Shown here: in pieces, positions 2 to 34,293 of the stretch
Numbering within the stretch: the stretch's first letter is position 1
Layout: the number at the start of each line of letters is the position of its first letter
Source: Vescimonas coprocola
Lineage (GTDB): Bacteria; Bacillota; Clostridia; Oscillospirales; Oscillospiraceae
Assembly (NCBI RefSeq): GCF_018408575.1
Contig: NZ_AP023418.1
Span: forward strand, 2,198,415-2,262,414
Length of the DNA stretch: 64,000 nucleotides
Reading direction: 5' to 3'
The notes under the pieces: model-generated
Database searches by the model: none
What the model was told of the DNA's origin: nothing
What the model saw: only the letters and a program-made list of their open reading frames with translations
Program-made: the position numbers and the translations under genes

Positions 2-3000
2 CTCACCGACGGCTGCGTCTTCGGTCAGGGCGGCGTGTCCTGCACCAGCTCCAGAAATGTGGGCGTCGAGTTCAAGCGTCTCATTATGGAAAGCGGCAAG
101 CTGGAGGGCATCTCCGGCAGCCCCGACTCGTCGTACCAGACCTGGGGCGGCCAGTTTAACGCCTACGGCCTTTACTGCACCGGCACCGCCAAGATCACCG
201 GCGGTGAGCTGATCGGCACCGCCAACGGCACGGACCGGGAACTGGACTACAGCGCCTACGGCTTCTACGGAAGCGATGAGCTGACCATGAGCGGCGGCAC
301 CCTCCGGGCCACCACCGGCGACACCCCTAACGCCAGTTCCGGGACACTGGCGGCCCTCAGCGTGGTCTCCAACAAGTCCAAGACCCAGCTCAGCGGCGGC
401 ACCATCTACGCCAGAGCCGGTGTCTCCAACGATGACCGCAGCTACGGTATGCGGATCCTCGGCACCGGCTCTACCCTCACCATGACCAATACCGAGGACG
501 CCGCCCAGCCCCTGAGTCTCTACGTCACCGGCCGGAACATGGCCCTTTACGCCACCGCTCTGGCAGACGGCAGCCTCCTGCCGGAGATCACCGCCTCCTC
601 CGCCTACGATGCCGAGGCCGACACCCTCACCGATGGCTACACCTTCTCCAACAAGCAATACCGGAAGGACGGCACGGCAGCCCTGTCCCTGTCCGCAGCC
701 GCCTGCCTCCACAGCGCCAGCGATGATACCGGCCTGTGTACCAAGTGCGGCAAGCGGGTATACGAGGCTGTGCTCCTGACGGACGGTGCCGTCACCCAGC
801 GCTATGCCGCCGCCGGCGAAGCCTTCACCGCCGCCCAGACGGAGGAGCATCAGGGCTGCACCCTGCGGCTGCTGACAGATCTCATCGACGACGGCCAGCC
901 TCTGGTCCACGACCCGGTGGTGACCATCACCGGCGGTCGCTTCACGCTGGACCTCCACAACCACACCATAGCGGGCAAGACCTCCGACGATAAGGAGGGC
1001 GTCGTCACCGTCACCGGCGGCCAGCTCCGCATCGAAAACGGCACGCTGGAGAACCTCTGCACCGGCAACGGCAGCAAGGCCCAGGCCCTGACCCTTCTGG
1101 GTACCGACACCCATGTGACGCTGGCCAATGTCACCGCCATCGGGGCCACGCCCCCCAACGGCGACACCAGCGCCTCCGTCTATGCCCCCGACGGTGCCCG
1201 TCTCACCATCGAAAGCGGCGAGTTCACCGGCCGGGTTGCCGGCACCTACGCCTCTGCTCCGGCGGAGACACCCCACGTCTCCATCGCCGGAGGCACCTTC
1301 CACAACGGCCTGTCCTACTCCATCCACGAGACGGAGGCCAACGCCGCCACCCTTCTGGCCATTCTGAAGGAGGGCTATTCGCTGGCCCACGCCGACGGCA
1401 CGCCGGTGGATCTGGGTACCGAGCCCTCCTTCAGCCGCTTCTCCGGCACCTATACGCTCAGCGGCGAGGTGCAGGTGGTGGCCCACACCCACAACGTCCG
1501 CAGCGGACGGCCGGGCTACTGCGGCTGCGGCTATGCCTGCCCCCACGACGGCCAGATACCGGACAGCTACTTTACGCTGCCGGTTTGCTCCCTGTGCGGC
1601 GTCTCCTACGGCACTCCCCTCAAGGACCTGCGCACGCCCACCGGCAAGATCATCATCGATGAAAACAACTGGTGGCAGGACTTCCTGAACACCGTCACCT
1701 TCGGCCTGTTCTTCCCCACCGGCGCCCGGTTCACCATCGAGGCTGCCGATGACAGCGTTGACCACGCCGGCTATGACCCCGAGCTCTACCCCGTGACGGT
1801 GGAGTATCTGGTGACGGATCAGCGCTATACCTCCGACAAGATGGGCGATCTTGCCCATCAGTTCCGGCCCTATCCCGGCAAGGCCGTGGCCCTGCCGGAC
1901 GATCAGACCAGCATCGTCTATGCCAAGATCACCGACTGGGCGGGCAATGTCACCTACCTCAGCACCGATGACCTGACGGTGGACGCCACCGCCCCGGAGA
2001 TCTCCTCCGATGTGGCCGAGAACCAAATTTACTGCCAGGACGGTCTCCGCATCGCCTTCCGGGATGACCATCTCAAGAGCGTCACCCTCAACGGCACGGA
2101 GATGACCTACGCCGCCGAGGACGGCTGGTATGTTCTCCGCCTCAGCGCCGTCTCCGGCTCTCAGGAGGGACAGCAGACCCTGACCGTCACCGACGAGGCC
2201 GGCAACGGCACCACCGTTCACTTCCAGTGGTACGCCGGTCACGGCTTTGACGATACCGGCCTGTGCAGTCACTGCGGCCTTCAGGCAGAGGCCCGGTGGA
2301 ACGACGCCTTCTTTCCGCATCTGGAGGATGCGCTGACCTCCGCCGATGCCGACGAGGACGGCGCCCGTTTCACGGCGGTGGTCATGCTGACCAATGCCTC
2401 TCTGCCTGCCGATGCCTTCTCTCTGGACGGCATAAGAGCCGTGCTGGCGCTGGAGGGCCACACCCTGACCCTGTCGGCTCCCATGACGCTGGAGCAGAGC
2501 TCCGGCAACCTCACCATCCGTGACAGCACCAGCTCCGGCAAGATCACCGGTCAGGCACTGACGGTAAAGGGCGGCCGCCTGACGGTGGAGGCCGGCTGCT
2601 TTGAAAACACGCTGAACCTTCAGGCCTACAACGTGACCCTCTTCGGCGGCACCTTCGCCCGCATTACGTCGGAGGATGCCGTATATCCCCGTGCGGCTCT
2701 GCCCTTCCGCACTGCCTATCAGCAGGCGGACGGCCAGCTGATCCGCCGCAGTGACATCACGCCCACGCTGGAAAATGTCGCCGTGGTCTCCTGCCCCCAC
2801 GATGAGATCGACGGCATCACCTGCCGCATCTGCGGCACCAAGATGGTGGCCAAGGTGGCTAAGGATGATACCCTCCGCTACTTCGCCGTCTTTGAGGACG
2901 CTGCCCAGTATGCCGCAGCGCTGGAGGGCTCCGCCATCACCCTGCTGAGGGATGCCCTCTGGGGCAGCATGGGCCTCCCCACCGGCACCTATACGCTGGA

Positions 3001-6000
3001 TCTCAACGGCAAGACCCTCTCCGGCTCCAACGACCTGATGATCGACGCCAGTCTCACCATCTGCGACAGTCAGGGTGGCGGTAAGCTGTGGCGGGACGGC
3101 ACCATTTTGGTGCTGGGCGGCCATGTCGCCATCACCGGCGGCCAGTTCAACCGGGTGTATCTGGCCTCCGACAGCGCTGATCTGTCCGTCACCGGCGGCA
3201 CCTTCGCCCGCATCGCTTACAGCGGCGAGGATACCTCCCGCACGCCTCTGTTCTTCCCGGCGGAGGGCTATACCTTCCAAAAGGCCGACGGCAGCTACGC
3301 CAATACCGGTGACGTGGTCATGGAGGAAAATCTCCGCTATCTGGAGGACGTCACCGTCACCACACCTCCCTTCACCATCACCCGTTACCCTGTGGACACG
3401 GACCTCTATCCCACCACCCCCGTCGGCTATCGGCCGGACTTCGTCACGGAGGTCACCTTCCACATCCCCGAGAGCAGCCCCACCATCGAGTTCCAGTGGT
3501 ATCAGGTGGGCGATCCCGACCGGATCAAGAGCTACGGCAGTGCAGTGGCCTGGCAGAACCCCTTCACCATCTACACCTTCATCGACGGGCCGGCCCAGTA
3601 CTACGGCATCTTCTCCTACAAGGGCTATTCCGTCCGCACCGACGTTCTGACAGTACGGGAGCTGACCTGTGACCACCCCGGCGTGGATGCCGACAATCGG
3701 TGCAGCCAGTGCCGTGCGGAGGTAGCCGCCTCCGTGGAGCTGAACGGCTCCACCGGCTACTATCTGTCCCTGTCGGAGGCTCTGGCGTTGGCCCGGACCG
3801 ATGCCTACCGTGGCTGCACCCTCACGGTTCTCCGCAGCAGCACCGATCCCATCTCCGTCAATAGCGGCTCCTTCACGCTGACGGCGGCGCAGGGCGTGAT
3901 GCTGGGCGGCAAGGTGACGCTGGCCAAGGATGCCGCCGTCACCCTCTCCGGCGGCAGCTACACCAGCTCCGCCAGCATCTTCGGGTCCAACCGCATCGAA
4001 GGCGGCACCTTCTACGGTGCCGTGGCCTTGCAGGACGGCTCCTCCGTCTCCGGCGGCAGCTTCCTCGGTGCCGTCACCATCTCCGACACCGTGACCGTCA
4101 CCGGCGGTACCTTCACCGGTGATGTCACCATCAACCATGGCGGCAAGCTGGTCGCCAGCGCCGGCACCTTCGGCAGCGTCAACGTCCAGTCCGGCGGAGG
4201 CGGCGCTCTCACCGGCGGCCACTTCGGCGAGATCACGCAGATCGATGGCAGCCCCTGCGCCGCCCTTCTGGCGGAGGGCTACGCCTATTCCGACGGCGGC
4301 ATCATCAACGGCTATGTCCCCATCGTCGGTGGCGTGGACGTGGTTCCCCATGCCCAGCACCAGTACGTCTGGCTGAACCAGAAGCTGCTGTGCGGCTGCG
4401 GCCATGTGGCAGATGAGGACGCCGACGCCCCGGTCATCACCGGCATCACCGACGGTGAGACCTATTACGACGACGTGACCTTCACCGTCACCGACGCCCA
4501 TGACTTCACCGTCACGGTGGACGGCCAGCCCGCCACCGCCGAGGGCAGCCTGTACACCCTCCCTGCCGACAACGTCTCCCACGAGATCGTGGCCGTAGAC
4601 GTGGCCGGCAACCGCACCACTGTCACGGTGTCGGTGTATCGGACCTATACCGTGACACCGCCCACCGGCACAGGCTTCACCTTCACCGGCGAGACCACCG
4701 TCCGCCACGGGCAGGATTACCGGTTCCGGGTGGATATCGCCCCCGGCTACTCCAAGCTGCCGGATTACTCCCTGCTGGTCAACGGCCAGACCCCCGGCGG
4801 CATGGGCGATGTGGACTTCGACGAGTGCCTGATCCCCAGCGTGGAGGGCGACCTGACCATCACCGTCACCGGCGTGGCGGATATCACCCCGCCGGAGGCG
4901 GAGCTGACCATCGCCGGGAATCCCTTCCGCCAGTTCCTGAACACCGTCACCTTCGGCCTGTTCTTCAAGAGCACCCAGACCGTGACGGTAACGGCCTCCG
5001 ACCTGGGCAGCGGCGTGGACACGGCGGCATGGATGCTGTCTGACACCGTCTTTGCCAGTCAGGACGCCATCACCGGCAGCTGGACGGACCTATCCCTCAC
5101 CGACGGCAGCGGCAGCTTCTCCATCCAGCCCGGCCAGAAGGGCTATGCGTACCTGCGGGTCACGGACCGGGCCGGGAACATCACCGTTCTGAACTCCGAC
5201 GGCGTGGTGGTCTACACCGACGCTCAGGCGGATACCCGGCAGATCACCTATGTTAAGCGCAGCGGACAGGATGTCTCCTTCCACGTCGCCCTCAACGGCA
5301 ACACCGTCACCGGCGTGCAGCTGGCGGACGGCACGCCTCTGGCGGGCTTCACCGCCGCCGAGGACGGCACCGTGACCCTGCCTGCCGCCACGCTGCAGGC
5401 GCTGGCCGCCGGGGACTACACCCTGTACGTCACCTACGCCCCCTTGGACGTGGCCTACAACGCCCGCTACGAGGCCAGCGAGGCACCGGCCATGACCTCC
5501 GTGGCCCTGTCCGTCCAGAAGGCCGAAGGCAGCGTCGCCATTCTGGATGACGTGAGCCGTGACTACAACGGCCAGCCGGTGGAAACTCCCGCCATCACCT
5601 CTCTCGGAACCGGCGCTCTCACGGTGGAATACCGGGCGCAGGGCGGCGAGTTCACCACGCAGGCCCCCAAGGCTGTGGGCAGCTACACCGTCCGGGTCAC
5701 GGCGGCGGCCGACGACGATTACGCCTCCGCCAGCGCCCAGCGGAACTTCCGCATCACCGCCAAGAGTGTCACCATCGACGGCGTCACCGTGGAGCCCTCC
5801 AAGACCTATGACGGCACCACCGACGCCACCATCGTGACGGGCGGCACCCTCAGCGCCAACTTCGACGGCAATGACCTCCGCATCGTCACCGGCTCTGCCG
5901 CCTACGACGGCAAGAACGTCGGCACCGGCAAGACCGTCTCCTTCTCCGGCTTCTCGCTGGAGGGCGACGCCGCCGAAAACTACACCCTGGCTTCCCAGCC

Positions 6001-7519
6001 TGCCGGCACCACGGCGGACATCACCGTCCGGCCGGTAACGGTGGAGGACCTGCACATTCAGGATAAGCTCTACGACGGCACGGATCGGGCGGAGTACGAC
6101 GGTGAGCCCACTCTGGGCAACGCCGTGTCCGGCGACCATGTGGCGCTGGTGAAGGGGGCTCCCTCCTTCACCTCCATCCGGACGGCAGAGGACATCGCCA
6201 TTCGTTTCACCGAGTTCTCCCTCACCGGCGCTGACGCCGGGAACTACGCCCTGACCCAGCCCACCGGCATTACTGCCTCCATCCTCCCCTACGCCCTCAC
6301 CGGCGGCGAGTATGCCGTCAACTCCAACGACTGGATCAACCACGACTTCGTGGTGACGGCGGCGGAGGGCTATCTCCTGTCCCTGACGGACACCGCCGAC
6401 GGCGTGTGGCAGCAGACCCTGCGGGCCGCCGACGAGACGGCGGAGGGCCGGCTGACCTTCTATGTGAAGGATCTGGCCACCGGTGCCATCTCCCTTCAGG
6501 TGACGGAGCAGTACCGCATCGACCGCACCCAGCCCACCGGCGAGATCCGGGTGGACGAGCGGACGGCCTGGCAGTCCTTCCTGTCCAGGATCACCTTCGA
6601 CCTCTTCTATCGGGAGGAGCAGACTGTGGTCATCACCTCTGCCGACGAGACCAGCGGCGTGGCGGCCACGGAGTATCTGCTGAGCGCCGAGGATCTGGAC
6701 ATCCCGGCGCTGGAGCAGGAGACCTTCCTGCCCTATGAAAAGGCGCTGGCGCTGGCTCCGGACGGCGCGTATGTGGTCTATGCCCGCATCACCGACCGGG
6801 CGGGCAACGTCACCTGCCTCCGCTCCGACGGCATGGTGCTGGACGCCACGGCCCCCGCCATCACCGGGGCTGAAAACGGCGGCGTGTACTGCGCCGCAGT
6901 GACCCTGACCATCACCGACGCATACCCCGTCACCGTCACCGTAAACGGCACTCCCGTGGAGCTGACAGAGGGCCGGCTGGTGCTCCGGCCCGCCGAGGGG
7001 ACGCAGCTGGTGACGGCCACTGATCCCGCCGGCAACGAGTCCCGGCTGGAGATCACCGTCAACGACGGCCATACCTGGGGCGACTGGAGCTCCAACGGCG
7101 ACGACACCCACACCCGCACCTGCACCATCTCCGGCTGCGGCGCTCTGGAGACCGAGAGCTGCACCGGCGGCGAGGCCACCTGCGTGGACCGGGCCGTGTG
7201 TGAGGTCTGCGGCGGGGCCTACGGCGACGTGGACGCCCATCGTCACGCCGATCTGCGCCATGTGGAGGCCAAGGCCGCCACCACGGAGGCCCCCGGCAAC
7301 ATCGAGTACTGGTACTGCGCCGCCTGCGGCAAGTATTTTGCCGACGCTCAGGCCAGCCGTGAGCTCCGGCAGGCGGACACCGTCACCGAGAAGCTGCCCG
7401 CCGCCCCCACCGGGGACGAGGCACCCCTGACGCTGTGGGTGATCGTGCTGGCAGCCTGCGCCGGTCTGGCGCTCCTGCTGCTGGTGCTCCGGCGGAGAAA
7501 CAGCCACCGCACCGCATAA
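2..7519 (+). CDS. Giant repeat-rich surface protein, 5' end outside window
   Basis: The frame is open from the window edge, so the true start and signal peptide lie upstream; about 2505 residues are visible. The N-terminal two thirds hold many short strand-rich TVTGGTF-like repeats, which suggest a right-handed beta-helix, separated by small Cys modules such as GLCTKCGK, GLCSHCGL and ITCRICGT. Bacterial Ig-like domains follow, then MBG/YDG-type repeats (YNGQPVETP, KTYDGTTDA, KLYDGTDRA). The motif FLNTVTFGLFF occurs at nt 1682-1714 and 4934-4966, with a diverged third copy near 6573. The C-terminus is a PTGDEAPLTLW sorting-like signal, a hydrophobic helix and RRRNSHRTA, which fits cell-surface anchoring. 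The architecture suggests an adhesin or cell-wall protein. No enzymatic motif was seen and the ligand is unknown. Confidence 0.85.
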   Translation, partial: LTDGCVFGQGGVSCTSSRNVGVEFKRLIMESGKLEGISGSPDSSYQTWGGQFNAYGLYCTGTAKITGGELIGTANGTDRELDYSAYGFYGSDELTMSGGTLRATTGDTPNASSGTLAALSVVSNKSKTQLSGGTIYARAGVSNDDRSYGMRILGTGSTLTMTNTEDAAQPLSLYVTGRNMALYATALADGSLLPEITASSAYDAEADTLTDGYTFSNKQYRKDGTAALSLSAAACLHSASDDTGLCTKCGKRVYEAVLLTDGAVTQRYAAAGEAFTAAQTEEHQGCTLRLLTDLIDDGQPLVHDPVVTITGGRFTLDLHNHTIAGKTSDDKEGVVTVTGGQLRIENGTLENLCTGNGSKAQALTLLGTDTHVTLANVTAIGATPPNGDTSASVYAPDGARLTIESGEFTGRVAGTYASAPAETPHVSIAGGTFHNGLSYSIHETEANAATLLAILKEGYSLAHADGTPVDLGTEPSFSRFSGTYTLSGEVQVVAHTHNVRSGRPGYCGCGYACPHDGQIPDSYFTLPVCSLCGVSYGTPLKDLRTPTGKIIIDENNWWQDFLNTVTFGLFFPTGARFTIEAADDSVDHAGYDPELYPVTVEYLVTDQRYTSDKMGDLAHQFRPYPGKAVALPDDQTSIVYAKITDWAGNVTYLSTDDLTVDATAPEISSDVAENQIYCQDGLRIAFRDDHLKSVTLNGTEMTYAAEDGWYVLRLSAVSGSQEGQQTLTVTDEAGNGTTVHFQWYAGHGFDDTGLCSHCGLQAEARWNDAFFPHLEDALTSADADEDGARFTAVVMLTNASLPADAFSLDGIRAVLALEGHTLTLSAPMTLEQSSGNLTIRDSTSSGKITGQALTVKGGRLTVEAGCFENTLNLQAYNVTLFGGTFARITSEDAVYPRAALPFRTAYQQADGQLIRRSDITPTLENVAVVSCPHDEIDGITCRICGTKMVAKVAKDDTLRYFAVFEDAAQYAAALEGSAITLLRDALWGSMGLPTGTYTLDLNGKTLSGSNDLMIDASLTICDSQGGGKLWRDGTILVLGGHVAITGGQFNRVYLASDSADLSVTGGTFARIAYSGEDTSRTPLFFPAEGYTFQKADGSYANTGDVVMEENLRYLEDVTVTTPPFTITRYPVDTDLYPTTPVGYRPDFVTEVTFHIPESSPTIEFQWYQVGDPDRIKSYGSAVAWQNPFTIYTFIDGPAQYYGIFSYKGYSVRTDVLTVRELTCDHPGVDADNRCSQCRAEVAASVELNGSTGYYLSLSEALALARTDAYRGCTLTVLRSSTDPISVNSGSFTLTAAQGVMLGGKVTLAKDAAVTLSGGSYTSSASIFGSNRIEGGTFYGAVALQDGSSVSGGSFLGAVTISDTVTVTGGTFTGDVTINHGGKLVASAGTFGSVNVQSGGGGALTGGHFGEITQIDGSPCAALLAEGYAYSDGGIINGYVPIVGGVDVVPHAQHQYVWLNQKLLCGCGHVADEDADAPVITGITDGETYYDDVTFTVTDAHDFTVTVDGQPATAEGSLYTLPADNVSHEIVAVDVAGNRTTVTVSVYRTYTVTPPTGTGFTFTGETTVRHGQDYRFRVDIAPGYSKLPDYSLLVNGQTPGGMGDVDFDECLIPSVEGDLTITVTGVADITPPEAELTIAGNPFRQFLNTVTFGLFFKSTQTVTVTASDLGSGVDTAAWMLSDTVFASQDAITGSWTDLSLTDGSGSFSIQPGQKGYAYLRVTDRAGNITVLNSDGVVVYTDAQADTRQITYVKRSGQDVSFHVALNGNTVTGVQLADGTPLAGFTAAEDGTVTLPAATLQALAAGDYTLYVTYAPLDVAYNARYEASEAPAMTSVALSVQKAEGSVAILDDVSRDYNGQPVETPAITSLGTGALTVEYRAQGGEFTTQAPKAVGSYTVRVTAAADDDYASASAQRNFRITAKSVTIDGVTVEPSKTYDGTTDATIVTGGTLSANFDGNDLRIVTGSAAYDGKNVGTGKTVSFSGFSLEGDAAENYTLASQPAGTTADITVRPVTVEDLHIQDKLYDGTDRAEYDGEPTLGNAVSGDHVALVKGAPSFTSIRTAEDIAIRFTEFSLTGADAGNYALTQPTGITASILPYALTGGEYAVNSNDWINHDFVVTAAEGYLLSLTDTADGVWQQTLRAADETAEGRLTFYVKDLATGAISLQVTEQYRIDRTQPTGEIRVDERTAWQSFLSRITFDLFYREEQTVVITSADETSGVAATEYLLSAEDLDIPALEQETFLPYEKALALAPDGAYVVYARITDRAGNVTCLRSDGMVLDATAPAITGAENGGVYCAAVTLTITDAYPVTVTVNGTPVELTEGRLVLRPAEGTQLVTATDPAGNESRLEITVNDGHTWGDWSSNGDDTHTRTCTISGCGALETESCTGGEATCVDRAVCEVCGGAYGDVDAHRHADLRHVEAKAATTEAPGNIEYWYCAACGKYFADAQASRELRQADTVTEKLPAAPTGDEAPLTLWVIVLAACAGLALLLLVLRRRNSHRTA

Positions 7520-15701: not shown

Positions 15702-15776
15702 AGCTGCCTTTCCGTTCCGGCGCAGAGCGCCGGAAGCCGCATGGTTGACGGTGTGCGGCACGCCGAAATGGGACGC

Positions 15777-28521: not shown

Positions 28522-28550
28522 TTGCAAAACGGTCGCCCTTGTGTTATGAT
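28522..28550 (+). promoter_or_regulatory. Promoter of the riboswitch transcript
   Basis: TTGCAA (28522-28527), 17-nt spacer and TATGAT (28545-28550). Transcription would start near 28557, about 45 nt before the riboswitch core. Confidence 0.65.
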
Positions 28551-28599
28551 GAGGAGGATAACGTTCCAGCCATTGAACTGGACTCCGTTTCTTTTTCAG

Positions 28600-28725
28600 C
28601 AGACGGTCCCGTCCCTGTGAGGGGACAGGTGGAATAGGGTGCAAATCCCTGCGAGTGGGTCACTGTGAAGCCCTCCCGGCGGCAAGTCCGACGGGACGGA
28701 TAAGTCAGATACACCGGGCCGTCCG
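28600..28725 (+). ncRNA. Cobalamin riboswitch aptamer
   Basis: The conserved core is readable in order: AGGTGGAAT, GGGTGCAAATCCC, GGGTCACTGTGAA (the B12-box region), GGCAAGTCCGA and AAGTCAGATAC. The closing stem pairs GACGGTCCC (28602-28610) with GGGCCGTC (28715-28723 region). It is the adenosyl- or other cobalamin-sensing class; the subclass cannot be decided by eye. A strong terminator follows at 28778, so binding probably promotes premature termination. The regulated gene is the DUF4430 surface protein at 28967. Confidence 0.85.
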
Positions 28726-28777
28726 CTGCGGTACCTGCCTGCACCGGGACTGCCTGCACAAAGAGAACGCCCTTGAT

Positions 28778-28816
28778 GCGTCCGTGCTGCCGAACCGGCG
28801 GCACGGACGCTTTTGC
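28778..28816 (+). terminator. Expression-platform terminator of the cobalamin riboswitch
   Basis: Arms GCGTCCGTGCTGCCG and CGGCGGCACGGACGC close on a short loop and are followed by TTTTGCTTT. It lies about 50 nt after the aptamer and 150 nt before the start codon, as expected for a transcription-attenuating switch. The remaining leader to 28966 shows no gene; the ribosome binding site is AAAAGGAG. Confidence 0.8.
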
Positions 28817-28966
28817 TTTGTGCCATCAGCAAAAGCCGCCCCCGGCCACGGGGGTCCGTACGGCAGACAAGAAAATCCCATCGGAGAGGAGGTGAGGGCT
28901 GCGGCCTGCACGCAGGGCCGCCGATCCCACTGACACCACGACATATTTGAGAAAAGGAGAAACGAA

Positions 28967-31900
28967 ATGCAGACAAAGAGCACGTCGTACGGAAAGAAGC
29001 TCCTTGCGCTGATGCTGTCCCTGCTGATGCTGGTGAGCGTCCTGCCGGTCTCGGCCTGGGCCGCCGCCGATGCAAAGCCCGAGAAGATCACTCTGGTGGG
29101 CAGCAGCGATGCGCTGGAGTATGAATTTGTAGACTATCTGACCTTTGCGTGGGAGGATATCCCCCACTATAAGGTCACTGTCCCCGCCGGGACCAAGACG
29201 GTCCAGCTCTACGGCACCGTCTATCTGGATAAGGCCAGCAGCTCCGGCAGCGGCTACACACAGAAGGACGGTCTGAATGATTGGCCGGCTCCCGTGGACT
29301 ACTGGTCAGCAGATGAGGTAGGCTCCTCCGCCCCCTATACCATCGAGACCCGCACCGGCGGCTACGAGAAGAACCTGTCTCTGGTCAAGACCCGGAGCTA
29401 TGCAGACACCAGCTCCGCCTATATTCTGGAGTTCGTGGAGAAGGACGACTCCCCCGCCGCCCCGGCTCCCGTTCTGACGGCGGACCTGTCCACGACGGCT
29501 GTCACCTACACCTGCGGCGATAGGGCCAACGCTCTGGCGGTGCAGGCCACCGGCAGCGGCACCCTGAGCTATCAGTGGCAGGTGAGCACCACCTCCGCCG
29601 CCGACGGCTTCGAGGACATCACCGACGCCACCCAGAGCAGCTACACCCCCTCCACCGAGGCGCCGGGCAGCTTCTGGTACCGTGTGGTGGTCACCAACAC
29701 CGTGGCGGGCAACAAGCCCACCAGTGTCACCAGCGCCGTGGCTCCCGTGACGGTCAACGTTCCGGAGGGGATGCGGCAGGTGAAGATCATCACCTCCCAG
29801 GGCCGGGGTACCGGCATGACCCTGACCCTGAAGGATGCTGCGGGCCAGCCCGTATCCATCCCCGCAGACACCAGCGGCGACTACAACGTATATGAGTTTC
29901 TGACGGCTCCCGGCGTCTATACCTATGAGGCACGGGACACTGTGCGGGGCAGCGAATATCTCCTTGGCACAGGCACCCTCACCGTCACCGAAGGCAGCGG
30001 TGAGCAGACCTTCGAGCTGTATCTGGTCTATGTCTACGCCATCGAGATCGGCTGGACGGCAGATGACTTCACCACCGAGGTCAAGGCCGCCGACGGCACC
30101 GTCATGACCCCCGGCGAGCCCCATCAGTCCGGCAGCTATGTAGGCTACCCCTACCTCATGGCCCCCGGTACCTACACCTGGTCCGTCCAGCCCTCCGAGG
30201 CCAGAGCGGCCGAGGGCTATCAGGCCTCCCAGCCCACCAGCCAGAAGCTGACGGGCTCTGCTACGTGGAGCGTCACTCTGCCCCAGATCGTGAGCACCGG
30301 CTTCGTGGTGCCTAAGGGCGGCCGTGTCGTCATGCACAGCATTCCCTCCACCACCTATGGGCAGGGTACGCTGATTCCCGGCGATGCCGATCTCACCGGC
30401 GATGACAGCGACGTCTACACCTTCCGGCTGGCGGCCGGCAGCAGCTACATCTATCAGGCCGCCGGCGACGGGCTTGTCACCGCCACCGGTATGTTCAAAT
30501 CCACCGGCGCCACCACCCGATATGACCTGACGAAAACCATGACCGGCAATCCCAAGGCCATTCTCCGGGACGAGGAGAGTGATGCGGCGGATATCCGCCT
30601 CAACGGTGTGGACTACACCGGCAGCGTCGCCCTGACCGTGGGCGGCATGAAGCAGCTGCGCCCCTGCGTATGTTCCAGATCTCCAACAGCTACGCCGCCG
30701 GCAGCAGAGGCTCCACGCTGGAGCCCGTGTTCCACTACACGGCACTGGATGTGGACGGCACCAATGTGGTCAGCGTGGATGACAGCGGCCGCATCACCGC
30801 CAACAGCGCCGGTACGGCCGTCGTTCTGGTGACCTATGACGCCATGTATGTGACGGACTGCGGCTGGGACATCAACAAGAACAAGACCTTTGGCGCCATC
30901 TGGCCGGAGAACACCGGTGTGGTGGTGGTGGAGGTAGGCGAGAACGCCGCCAACGGCCCGGATGCCAACATGACCATCAACAACGGTGACCGGAAGGTGG
31001 CCGGTAACAAGCTGGATGCTGAGGCAGACGTGCTGTACTACACCGGCGATGACGGCTGCCAGTACACCTTCCGGCCCGCCGCCGGCAGCACCGTCACCCT
31101 GCTGCGCCCCACGCTCACCGAGACGGCCATGACCTACACCGGCGGCTTCGGCACCGACGGTGTGACCACCAAGGGCGGCGACGTGACTCTGACTCTCACC
31201 GAGGGCAAAAACATCGTCAAGATCAGCAAGGATGGCGCCGACACCTATCAGGTCATCACCGTGAAGAAGGCCGGGGTAGTCATCACCAACAAGACCGACC
31301 CCACCCGTGATATCCTGCCCGGCGACACCGTCACCGTGCAGCTCACCGGCGTGTATCACCCCGCCAACACCATGGCGAACCTGTATAGCCTCTACGCCTA
31401 CGTCTCCTACACCGATCCCGGCAGCGGCGATACCGTCACCGGCGATAAGTATTTCTACCAGCGTCACCTCTTCGACCGGGCGGACGGCGACAGCTGCCGC
31501 ACCGTGGAGGTAAAGATCCCCGCCGACTGGGATGCTGATGAGCCCTATGTCCTGACGAACGGCGTTCTCAGCTTCTACGGCAACTGCAAGGATATCGGCT
31601 CGCACCGCAATTCCCTGCCCAATCTCTCCATCAGTGTTCCCCATAGCTACAGCAGCTTCAAGCTGGGCGCCCTGCCGGATATCACCATCCCTGTGGTCAA
31701 GCCCAATACGGCGGACGTCACCTTCTCCGTGAAGGATGACTCCGGAAACGCCGTCAACAGCTGCACCATCCAGCTGACCAACAGCAGCAACGATACCGTC
31801 ACCATCAACGCCACCGCTGCCTCCGCCACCCGCACGCTGGCCAGCGGCAAGTGGAGCTATGTAGTCACCAAGGAGGGCTATCTGCCCGCTAAGGGTACAC

Positions 31901-34293
31901 TGACCGTGGTGGGCGGTGAGGATCAGGCCGTGAATGTGGAGCTGCCTCTGGTCACTGCCATTCAGGTCAAGACTCTGCCCAAGAAAACCGTTTATACCGA
32001 GGGCGACACGCTGAATACCGCCGGTCTGGTGGTGCAGGCTGTCACCAAAAACGGCGCTTCCACCCTGTCCGCCGACCAGTACACCCTCTCCCCCACCCTG
32101 CTGAAAACCGTGGGGCAGCAGGCCATCACCGTGACCTTCGGTCAGCTCACCACCACCTTTGAGGTGACGGTACGGGAGGATATCGTCACGCTGGAGACCA
32201 CGCTGGAGGATGGCATCACCCAGCGCAACTCCCGCATGACCTTCGACGTCTTTGCCAAGGACGGCGACGGCAACAAGCTGCCTGCCAGCGAGGTCACCGT
32301 GCTCCTCAACGGTGATCCGGTGTCCGTCAACTGGGACGATGACACCAAGACCAGCTATACCCTGCACTTTACCAAGGAGGGCGTCAACACCGTCGTTGTC
32401 AAGGCCCACAAGGCCTCTGTAACCTATACCATCACCTATGTGAAGGCCGAGCCCGGTGATGTGGTGGGCAAGGCCGTGTTCACCGTGGAGGCCCTGTCTC
32501 TGGGCGGCGGCTACATCATTGAGCCCTGCTATGTGGACATCATCGAGGGCGAGAACGCTGCTCAGGCGCTGGCCCGTCTGCTGGAGGAAAGAGGCTTTAC
32601 CTACAGCAACACCGGCTCTCTGGAGAGCGGCTTCTATCTGTCCCACATCCAGGGCGATGCGCTGGCGGGCATTGATCCCACCGGCGACAGCATCCCCCAG
32701 GCCCTGCGGGAGAAGCTGGAGGAGAAGAACTTCGATATCCAGACCCGGACGGACGAGACCAGTCTGGGTGAATTCGACTACACCAGCGCCTCCGGCTGGA
32801 TGTACTGCCTGAAGAACGTATTCCCCAACGTGGGCTTTGCCGATTCCTATCTGTCCGAGGGCGACGTGGTGCGTGTGCAGTTCACGGTGGCCTACGGCTC
32901 CGACATCGGCGGCGGCTTTGCCATGGGCTCCGGCGACAGTGCCGGTTACTTTGACATGGCCAACAAAGACGCTTTGACCCGCCGTGTAGCGGCCATCAAC
33001 GCCGAGATTGAGGCGAACCCCTACTATCTGGAGCAGAACTGCCTGACCAAGGCCTATGACGCCGCTATGGACGTGCTGACCACTCTGTACGTCTCTCAGG
33101 CCGACGTGGATGCCGCTTTGGCGGATCTGCCCGATCCCCCTGTGGGCCACCAGCTGACCGCTGTGGAGAAGGTTCCTGCCACCTGCGAGACCGCCGGCGT
33201 GGAGGCTTACTGGAAGTGCTCCGTCTGCGGCAAGCTGTTCAGCGATGCCGAGGGCAAGACCGAGACGACGCTGGAGAAGCTGGCTATCCCCGCTACCGGT
33301 CATGCCTATGGCGCCCCGGTGTGGAAGTGGAACGATGATTTCACCGCTTCTGCCACCTTTACTTGCGGCAATGATACCTCCCATGTGGAAAACGTCACGG
33401 CAGAGGTGACCAGCGCTGTCACCACGCCCGCCGCTTGCGAGACGGACGGCGTTCGCACCTACACCGCCAAGGTCACCTTCGATGGTAAGGACTACACCGA
33501 CACCAAGACGGAGGTCATCCCCGCTACCGATCATGCTTACGGTGAGCCGGTGTGGAAGTGGAACGATGATTTCAAGGCCACTGCCACCTTCACCTGCACC
33601 AACGATGCCACCCATGTGGAAAACGTCACGGCAGAGGTGACCAGCGCTGTCACCACGCCCGCCGCTTGCGAGACCACCGGCGTCCGCACCTATACCGCTA
33701 AGGTCACCTTCGATGGTAAGGACTACACCGATACCAAGACCGAGGTCATCCCCGCTACCGGTCATGCCTATGGCGCCCCGGTGTGGAAGTGGAACGATGA
33801 TTTCACCGCTTCTGCCACATTCACCTGCGGCAATGATACTTCCCATGTGAAAAACGTCACGGCAGAGGTGACCAGCGCTGTCACCACGCCCGCCGCTTGC
33901 GAGACCACCGGCGTCCGCACCTATACCGCTAAGGTCACCTTCGAGGATAAGGAGTATACCTCCAGCAAGACCGAGGTCATTCCCGCCAAGAGCCACGACA
34001 CGGAACTGGTGGGTGCCAAGGATGCCACCTGCACCGAGGATGGCTACACCGGCAACGAGGTCTGCAAGGTCTGCCAGACTGTCGTGAAGCAGGGCGAGGT
34101 GATTCCCGCTCTGGGCCACGACTACAAGGATGGCAAGTGCAGCCGCTGCGGCGCTGAGGAGCCTACCACTCCCGTGGAGCCCGGCAAGCCCACCACCGGC
34201 GACAGCAGCACTCTGGTGCTGTGGCTGGCCCTGCTGGCCATCTCCGGTATGGCTGTGACGGTCATTCCCTCCCGCAAAAAGCGCAGCCGGTAA
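28967..34293 (+). CDS. Secreted anchored protein with transcobalamin-like DUF4430 domain, frameshifted here
   Basis: About 1775 residues once one frameshift is repaired. A signal peptide ends near VLPVSAWAAA. Ig-like domains follow (SYQWQVSTTSAADGFEDITD), later a bacterial Ig-like region (KTVYTEGDTLNTAGLVVQAV). Near residues 1165-1313 lies a DUF4430 domain (GGYIIEPCYVDIIEGENAAQ, SGWMYCLKNVFPNVGFADSY, DVVRVQFTVAYG), the fold at the C-terminus of intrinsic factor and transcobalamin. Then come a Cys module (YWKCSVCGKLFSDAEG), three 77-residue repeats and a C-terminal PTTGDSSTLVLW anchor. At 30661-30664 four C replace an expected five (KQLRPLRMFQISNSY would result), splitting the frame. With the cobalamin riboswitch upstream, a role in cobalamin capture at the surface is a reasonable inference. 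Confidence 0.85.
33301..33993 (+). repeat. Three tandem 231-bp repeats inside the DUF4430 protein
   Basis: Units begin at 33301, 33532 and 33763, each starting HAYG and running through VWKWNDDF, ATFTC, VTAEVTSAVTTPAACET, VRTYTAKVTF and ending TEVIPA. DNA identity is very high, including synonymous sites, so the units are young or homogenised. Copy number could vary and could be mis-assembled. Confidence 0.9.

Follow-up and report, generated by a model that had tools for sequence, protein, structure and literature searches.

The closest described systems fall into three groups. For Gram-positive bacteria, scavenging of B12 by an SLBB domain (DUF4430) acting with an alpha/alpha toroid was predicted by Burroughs et al. 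(2007; PMC1796856), whose proteins, according to the accessible part of that paper, have signal peptides, anchors, fusions to toroids and beta-propellers, and operons with CbiO/CbiQ-like genes. In Bacteroides, the surface protein BtuG captures B12 and is encoded in riboswitch-regulated loci (PMC6143338, accessible part). The carriers transcobalamin, intrinsic factor, and haptocorrin join an SLBB beta-domain to an alpha/alpha toroid. We analyzed 64,000 nt of Vescimonas coprocola (assembly GCF_018408575.1, contig NZ_AP023418.1, positions 2,198,415 to 2,262,414, forward strand; hereafter the window), in which a compact cobalamin-type RNA at 28598-28755 lies before the gene of a surface protein with a transcobalamin-type domain. 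The source genome (G000) comprises 2.56 Mb in two contigs.

The locus and its relatives share with the proteins of Burroughs et al. the signal peptides, the putative anchors, the toroid and propeller fusions, the CbiO/CbiQ-like operons, and the predicted role in B12 scavenging; the word riboswitch occurs zero times in the accessible text of that paper, and what we add is the link to B12-type RNA, the compact RNA itself, and a paralogous set of genes. BtuG is likewise a B12-capturing surface protein (a role that is putative here) from riboswitch-regulated loci, but it is a Gram-negative outer-membrane lipoprotein, and the parallel drawn here is one of role. Unlike transcobalamin, intrinsic factor, and haptocorrin, the window protein is bacterial, would be anchored to the wall by its tail, and has many Ig-like and repeat regions, and a toroid was undetected in its chain. 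No link of a cobalamin riboswitch to a DUF4430 or transcobalamin-like surface protein was found in the accessible literature, subscription papers and preprints lying outside that scope. The arrangement of a compact cobalamin-type RNA before transcobalamin-type surface proteins is real and recurrent, and the system is likely to be functional in the group, where both RNA and protein would bind the ligand.

The compact RNA and its family

The Rfam cobalamin model RF00174 matched positions 28587-28737 (+) in a relaxed scan of 611 nt (25.4 bits, E = 1.7e-4), and matched the window again at E = 1.7e-4 in a whole-genome scan, the score lying below the gathering score of 31.5. At E = 1 or better the whole genome returned, besides the window, an element at C1:1460402-1460608 (31.9 bits) and a fragment at L009 (13.4 bits, E = 0.48) that we judged a chance match after reading its sequence. 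At Rfam gathering scores the window held no cobalamin riboswitch, its sole RNA match being to M23 RNA (15707-15765, -; 57.1 bits, E = 8e-9). A model trained on 25 aptamers from relatives within the genus, with the source genome contributing none (R1; 25 of the 71 RF00174 matches, alignment A3), gave 71.9 bits to the C1:1460402 element and 18.9 bits to the window element (E = 5e-4), together with weak matches just ahead of three further DUF4430 genes for anchored surface proteins (L011: 22 bits, E = 1.6e-4; L013: 17.8 bits, E = 2.2e-3; L014: 15.6 bits, E = 9.4e-3). A second model, R2, was built from these three paralogous elements alone, with the window left out, and it recovered the window element at 80.6 bits (E = 2.2e-15). 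The B12-type aptamer of the original prediction is thus upheld by R2, with RF00174 remaining below threshold. The RNA features of the locus are as follows.

28522..28550, +: sigma-70-type promoter-like site, TTGCAA-17-TATGAT (one such site, against 0.1 expected in shuffled sequence)
28598..28755, +: compact cobalamin-type riboswitch aptamer (R2 80.6 bits; RF00174 25.4 bits; R1 18.9 bits)
28628..28672, +: conserved core, 5' half, GGTGGAAT...TCACTGTGAAGCC
28698..28715, +: conserved core, 3' half, GGATAAGTCAGATACACC
28778..28820, +: intrinsic terminator, 15-bp stem and T-rich tail (stem -32.2 kcal/mol)

The predicted terminator is present too, as a 15-bp stem at 28778-28810 followed by TTTTGCTTTG, with the promoter-like site upstream of the aptamer; a stem with a T-run closes all five compact elements of the source genome. 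This arrangement of promoter and terminator fits a putative OFF switch acting by termination.

Read side by side, the weak R1 matches upstream of the surface genes share a compact layout and the strings GGAAT, GCGAG, GGTCACTGTGA, and TAAGTCAGATAC. Compact elements measure about 133-183 nt and mostly have a short side hairpin. R2 matched 19 places in seven of the 32 genus genomes (one of them, in G026, partial and weak at 27.3 bits) and was found in 92 of 300 family genomes, representing 52 of 106 genera. On 84 other loci (1.34 Mb), many of which carry long cobalamin riboswitches, it matched at two places only, and this near silence indicates that the compact RNA is a distinct type. Across 49 aligned elements (alignment A7, from 48 fetched loci, a subset of all genus and family matches), 35 of 43 pairs had changes on both sides, and 91.1% of cells were paired, against at most 45.3% when the partner was slid; the elements were aligned by fitting them to the model, a choice that leans towards it. 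None of the compact elements in 20 scanned loci, nor that of the window, reached an Rfam gathering score. At E = 0.05, eight loci yielded sub-threshold overlaps with the compact element in three (RF00174: L187, 31.2 bits; L195, 30.6 bits; RF01482, the AdoCbl riboswitch: L204, 32.9 bits against a cut-off of 50) and none in five; likeness to the Rfam families consists of these overlaps and that of the window. Two stronger RF00174 matches proved to be separate elements: the one gathering-level match in the 20 loci, at L181:1699-1851, lies outside the compact element of that locus (1501-1639), and a 52-bit match in L207 is on the strand opposite to the compact one. The compact RNA is a widespread cobalamin-type RNA that standard annotation overlooks.

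Five surface genes of the source genome, that of the window included, lie under compact elements. The sister species (G001) has eight such secreted-protein genes, of which five have a visible PATGD tail and one a PATSD tail, the other two being cut by the end of the stretch and split between frames, respectively. G025 has a surface gene beside cobS/cobU-like genes and, separately, an operon of the SLBB, MoxR, and DUF58 types, while the G010 element precedes a CbiQ-ABC-ECF-S transporter. A DUF4430 match lay within 12 kb downstream of 13 of the 19 genus elements. The remaining six are the L208 element of the source genome, which precedes an anchored protein; the L209 element of the sister species, with a Cadherin-like protein downstream; the G010 transporter element; the G020 and G005 elements, where the stretch showed no surface gene; and the partial G026 match. 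Ten family genes under compact elements, hand-picked from the list and not a census, comprised two CbiK, one CbiD, one Peripla_BP_2, a dehydrogenase fused to a tetrapyrrole-methylase fragment of 42 positions, two SLH proteins that match toroid-type families weakly, one PQQ propeller, and two others. Genes for cobalamin transport or synthesis (cbiK, cbiD, Peripla_BP_2, and the CbiQ transporter) are found downstream, and what the compact elements control looks like a corrinoid regulon.

One surface gene under a compact element lies between two nearly identical integrase-like open reading frames (ORFs) of 415 aa each (L208:3495-4742 and L208:9797-11044), and a further such frame (L013:6481-7599) adjoins a second gene of this kind. 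Given these neighbors, read as integrases by eye, these surface genes may be mobile.

The surface protein, its domain, and related loci

Genes were called with a simple ORF picker, which placed some starts wrongly and fused some neighbors. The coding features downstream of the terminator are these.

28967..30832, +: ORF1, 621 aa, with the signal peptide and the N-terminal region; its homology to L093 runs approximately to the frame break
30640..30670, +: frame break between ORF1 and ORF2 (approximate)
30670..34293, +: ORF2, 1207 aa, remainder of the surface protein
31978..32172, +: Big_3 Ig-like domain, ORF2 residues 437-501 (PF07523, 43.3 bits)
32455..32934, +: transcobalamin-type SLBB (DUF4430) domain
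33301..33804, +: three HAYGxPVWKWNDDF repeats, starting at 33301, 33532, and 33763
34189..34293, +: PTTGD motif with hydrophobic stretch and basic tail, read by eye as a wall anchor

The DUF4430 profile (PF14478, cut-off 23.8) scored 20.9 bits against the whole ORF and 26.5 bits against the 160-aa domain alone, covering only profile positions 33-71 of 72. Structure prediction gave the domain a confident transcobalamin-type fold, like those of human intrinsic factor and transcobalamin, and the closest folds were cobalamin carriers, with a clear drop in matches after them; this ranking is a second look at the matches of Foldseek, not a search of its own. The DUF4430/transcobalamin fold that had been predicted was found by both profile (with the domain alone) and predicted structure. 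A phmmer search of the domain against PDB returned no match.

The predicted secreted, anchored protein of about 1775 residues held up in part: the translations show, to the eye, a signal peptide, a PTTGD motif, a hydrophobic stretch, and a basic tail, and the genome has one sortase match, but the single chain gave way to frames of 621 and 1207 aa. The Pfam anchor model PF00746 had no match at E = 0.01 in the window ORFs. At the window edge, a very large open frame (2-7519, +; 2505 aa) is apparently another surface protein.

The arrangement had been called non-standard; instead, it recurs in the group. B12-type RNA lay within 12 kb upstream on the same strand for 28 of 51 DUF4430 matches in the 32 genus genomes, compared with five upstream on the opposite strand, three downstream on the same strand, and none downstream on the opposite strand. 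(An earlier count had 52 rows; the present one drops an approximate-coordinate row, the 652-aa operon protein described below, and the sub-threshold window element, and takes in the compact ones.) Of the 57 loci that carry the extended domain, 27 had cobalamin RNA upstream on the same strand, as did 26 of the 45 having at least 3 kb of upstream sequence, on the basis of 44 matches at E = 1e-3 or better of the 46 listed. (Alignment A4 comprises the window and 50 of these loci, leaving out L111, L116, and L145-L149.) Five other hits lay downstream on the same strand (in L095-L097), four loci had one upstream on the opposite strand, and no hit lay downstream on the opposite strand. In L088, L089, and L090, cobalamin RNAs form divergent pairs, one directed towards a DUF4430 lipoprotein-type gene and the other towards transporter-type genes (by eye).

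Gene neighborhoods are conserved as well. A toroid is present in 46 of the 57 loci, ECF T or S genes in 17, and MoxR, DUF58, and transglutaminase all together in 34 (L093-L149). The toroid protein had no phmmer match in PDB, and a profile from 23 proteins of the 46 toroid-bearing loci (alignment A9) matched squalene cyclases at E = 1e-14. The source genome has a second riboswitch operon, encoding an SLBB protein of 652 aa (DUF4430, 17.5 bits) and an alpha/alpha toroid protein of 458 aa (L017:2041-3417, -; Prenyltrans, E = 4e-4), both under cut-off, with MoxR, DUF58, a transglutaminase-type membrane protein, and a 2388-aa protein (L016:9608-16774, -) matching Cadherin-like and PQQ_2 propeller families. 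A propeller beside SLBB in a riboswitch operon recalls BtuG, as a resemblance of layout. DUF4430 and a weak toroid match occur in one chain in L013, L210, L211, L212, L214, and L215, the toroid score exceeding the curated cut-off in L215 only.

We searched two corrinoid-related families, PF02310 and PF02277. The single PF02310 (B12-binding) match of the genome is in L159 (G000:C1:1252000-1270000), in a cluster read by eye as lysine 5,6-aminomutase (KamD- and KamE-like) with lysine-fermentation genes; cobT is present with cobU- and cobS-like neighbors.

Proposed mechanism and competing explanations

We propose that the compact cobalamin riboswitch would control, by transcription termination, the gene of a cobamide-capture protein anchored to the wall. 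Under B12 scarcity the terminator would not form and the surface protein would be made, to be fixed to the wall by sortase. Its SLBB domain would bind the cobamide as one half of a clamp, the other half being an alpha/alpha toroid, supplied in the same chain in several paralogues and, for the window protein, probably in trans from the second riboswitch operon. A DUF4430 lipoprotein and an ECF transporter would then take over the cobamide, which would feed lysine 5,6-aminomutase. The RNA family and its covariation, the terminator, the domain fold, and the conserved neighborhoods come from computation and speak in favor, as do the corrinoid genes under other compact elements, the L093 locus, and the lysine 5,6-aminomutase and cobT genes; the ligand, the OFF-type response, cobamide binding, the partner toroid, the hand-over, and the metabolic use are inferred. 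We consider this proposal as a whole, from riboswitch control and wall-anchored capture to hand-over and metabolic use, to be probable.

Several results weigh against it. No antiterminator was distinguishable from shuffled controls: the best pairing with the terminator 5' arm had -22.7 kcal/mol, compared with a best of -24.4 and a mean of -19.8 for shuffled arms (n = 30), and because it was no better than these we claim none. The sequence profile of the domain ranked transcobalamin-2 first in PDB at only E = 0.083. Neither ORF1 nor ORF2 had a Prenyltrans or SQHop_cyclase match at E = 0.01, so the toroid that transcobalamin and intrinsic factor carry in the same chain is not seen in the window ORFs. 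The anchored protein of L208, one of the five surface proteins under compact elements in the source genome, matched no Pfam family at E = 0.001. Of the 57 loci, 30 have no same-strand riboswitch upstream, only 11 of them with less than 3 kb of upstream sequence (the 30 include L118, whose RNA is about 11 kb away, at or beyond the flank, and L135, with a compact element at or beyond the flank), and eight have none of riboswitch, toroid, or ECF genes. Finally, ORF1 and ORF2 overlap in different frames.

This last point bears on the most serious alternative, which we hold to be quite possible though short of even: that the window copy is decaying, its riboswitch intact and its translation ending near residue 621, before SLBB domain and anchor, with the paralogues and the operon doing the work. 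Both ORFs align to one intact protein of 2272 aa (L093, an uncultured Flavonifractor contig), ORF1 with 39% identity over 604 aa and ORF2 with 48% over 441 and 50% over 399, so the window frame is broken near 30,640-30,670. Upstream of the L093 gene is an RF00174 match of 74.7 bits, and downstream come genes for a toroid, for a DUF4430 lipoprotein, and for ECF components. These alignments make the gene in the window, whose frame is broken through mutation or assembly error, a homologue of a surface protein lying under a B12 riboswitch. The split surface gene under one of the eight elements of the sister species is in line with decay; against it, both window frames align well to L093 and have no further stops, and a single assembly error would look identical. 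Because of the frame break we regard it as doubtful that the window copy is functional. The original prediction of surface cobalamin capture is partly supported, by the cobalamin-type RNA, the covariation, the recurring pairing, and the cobalamin-carrier fold, but the window gene, being split in two frames, may not make the anchored protein.

Two further alternatives concern the ligand. B12 could be a mere cue for the riboswitch, with the surface proteins serving as adhesins or binding other ligands through DUF4430 as a general small-ligand fold. The many Ig-like and repeat regions agree with this, as do the 23 of 51 genus DUF4430 matches lacking an upstream B12-type RNA and a DUF4430 lipoprotein (L012:4078-5127) directly after a thiamine-diphosphokinase-like gene (by eye), where no B12-type RNA was found; these last two also weigh against capture. 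DUF4430 alone is therefore no B12 marker, and the domain may serve other ligands too. The clear lead of cobalamin carriers among the closest folds, and the frequency of toroids and ECF genes in the 57 loci, argue in the opposite direction, and we think this explanation unlikely. Hardly different in probability, and slightly the less favored, is uptake of incomplete corrinoids (cobinamide, precursors) in place of complete cobamides, to which the salvage genes cobT and cobU/cobS-like point; the fold matches are binders of complete cobalamin, though the data do not separate the two. That the RNA match is due to chance or to a non-riboswitch terminator region, as its RF00174 score under gathering might suggest, is very improbable in view of the R2 E-value, the covariation, and the corrinoid genes downstream of its relatives.

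We therefore return to riboswitch-controlled cobamide capture, with the window gene, one of five such surface-protein genes in the genome, as a copy that may be decaying given its broken frame. A broader claim seems to us evenly poised: that the compact RNA is a cobalamin riboswitch class of its own, present in 52 of the 106 family genera sampled and missed at Rfam 15 gathering scores, which governs cobamide receptors that are anchored to the wall and resemble intrinsic factor (five surface genes in this genome and eight in the sister species), a Gram-positive counterpart of Bacteroides surface capture and a living relative of the proposed source of animal B12 carriers. The 2007 prediction of bacterial transcobalamin-like surface proteins is now tied to B12-type RNA regulation and thereby becomes testable. 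If the proposal is true, gut Gram-positive bacteria would have a surface route of B12 capture comparable to BtuG of Bacteroides, which would bear on cobamide competition and on the proposal that intrinsic factor and transcobalamin originated in bacteria.

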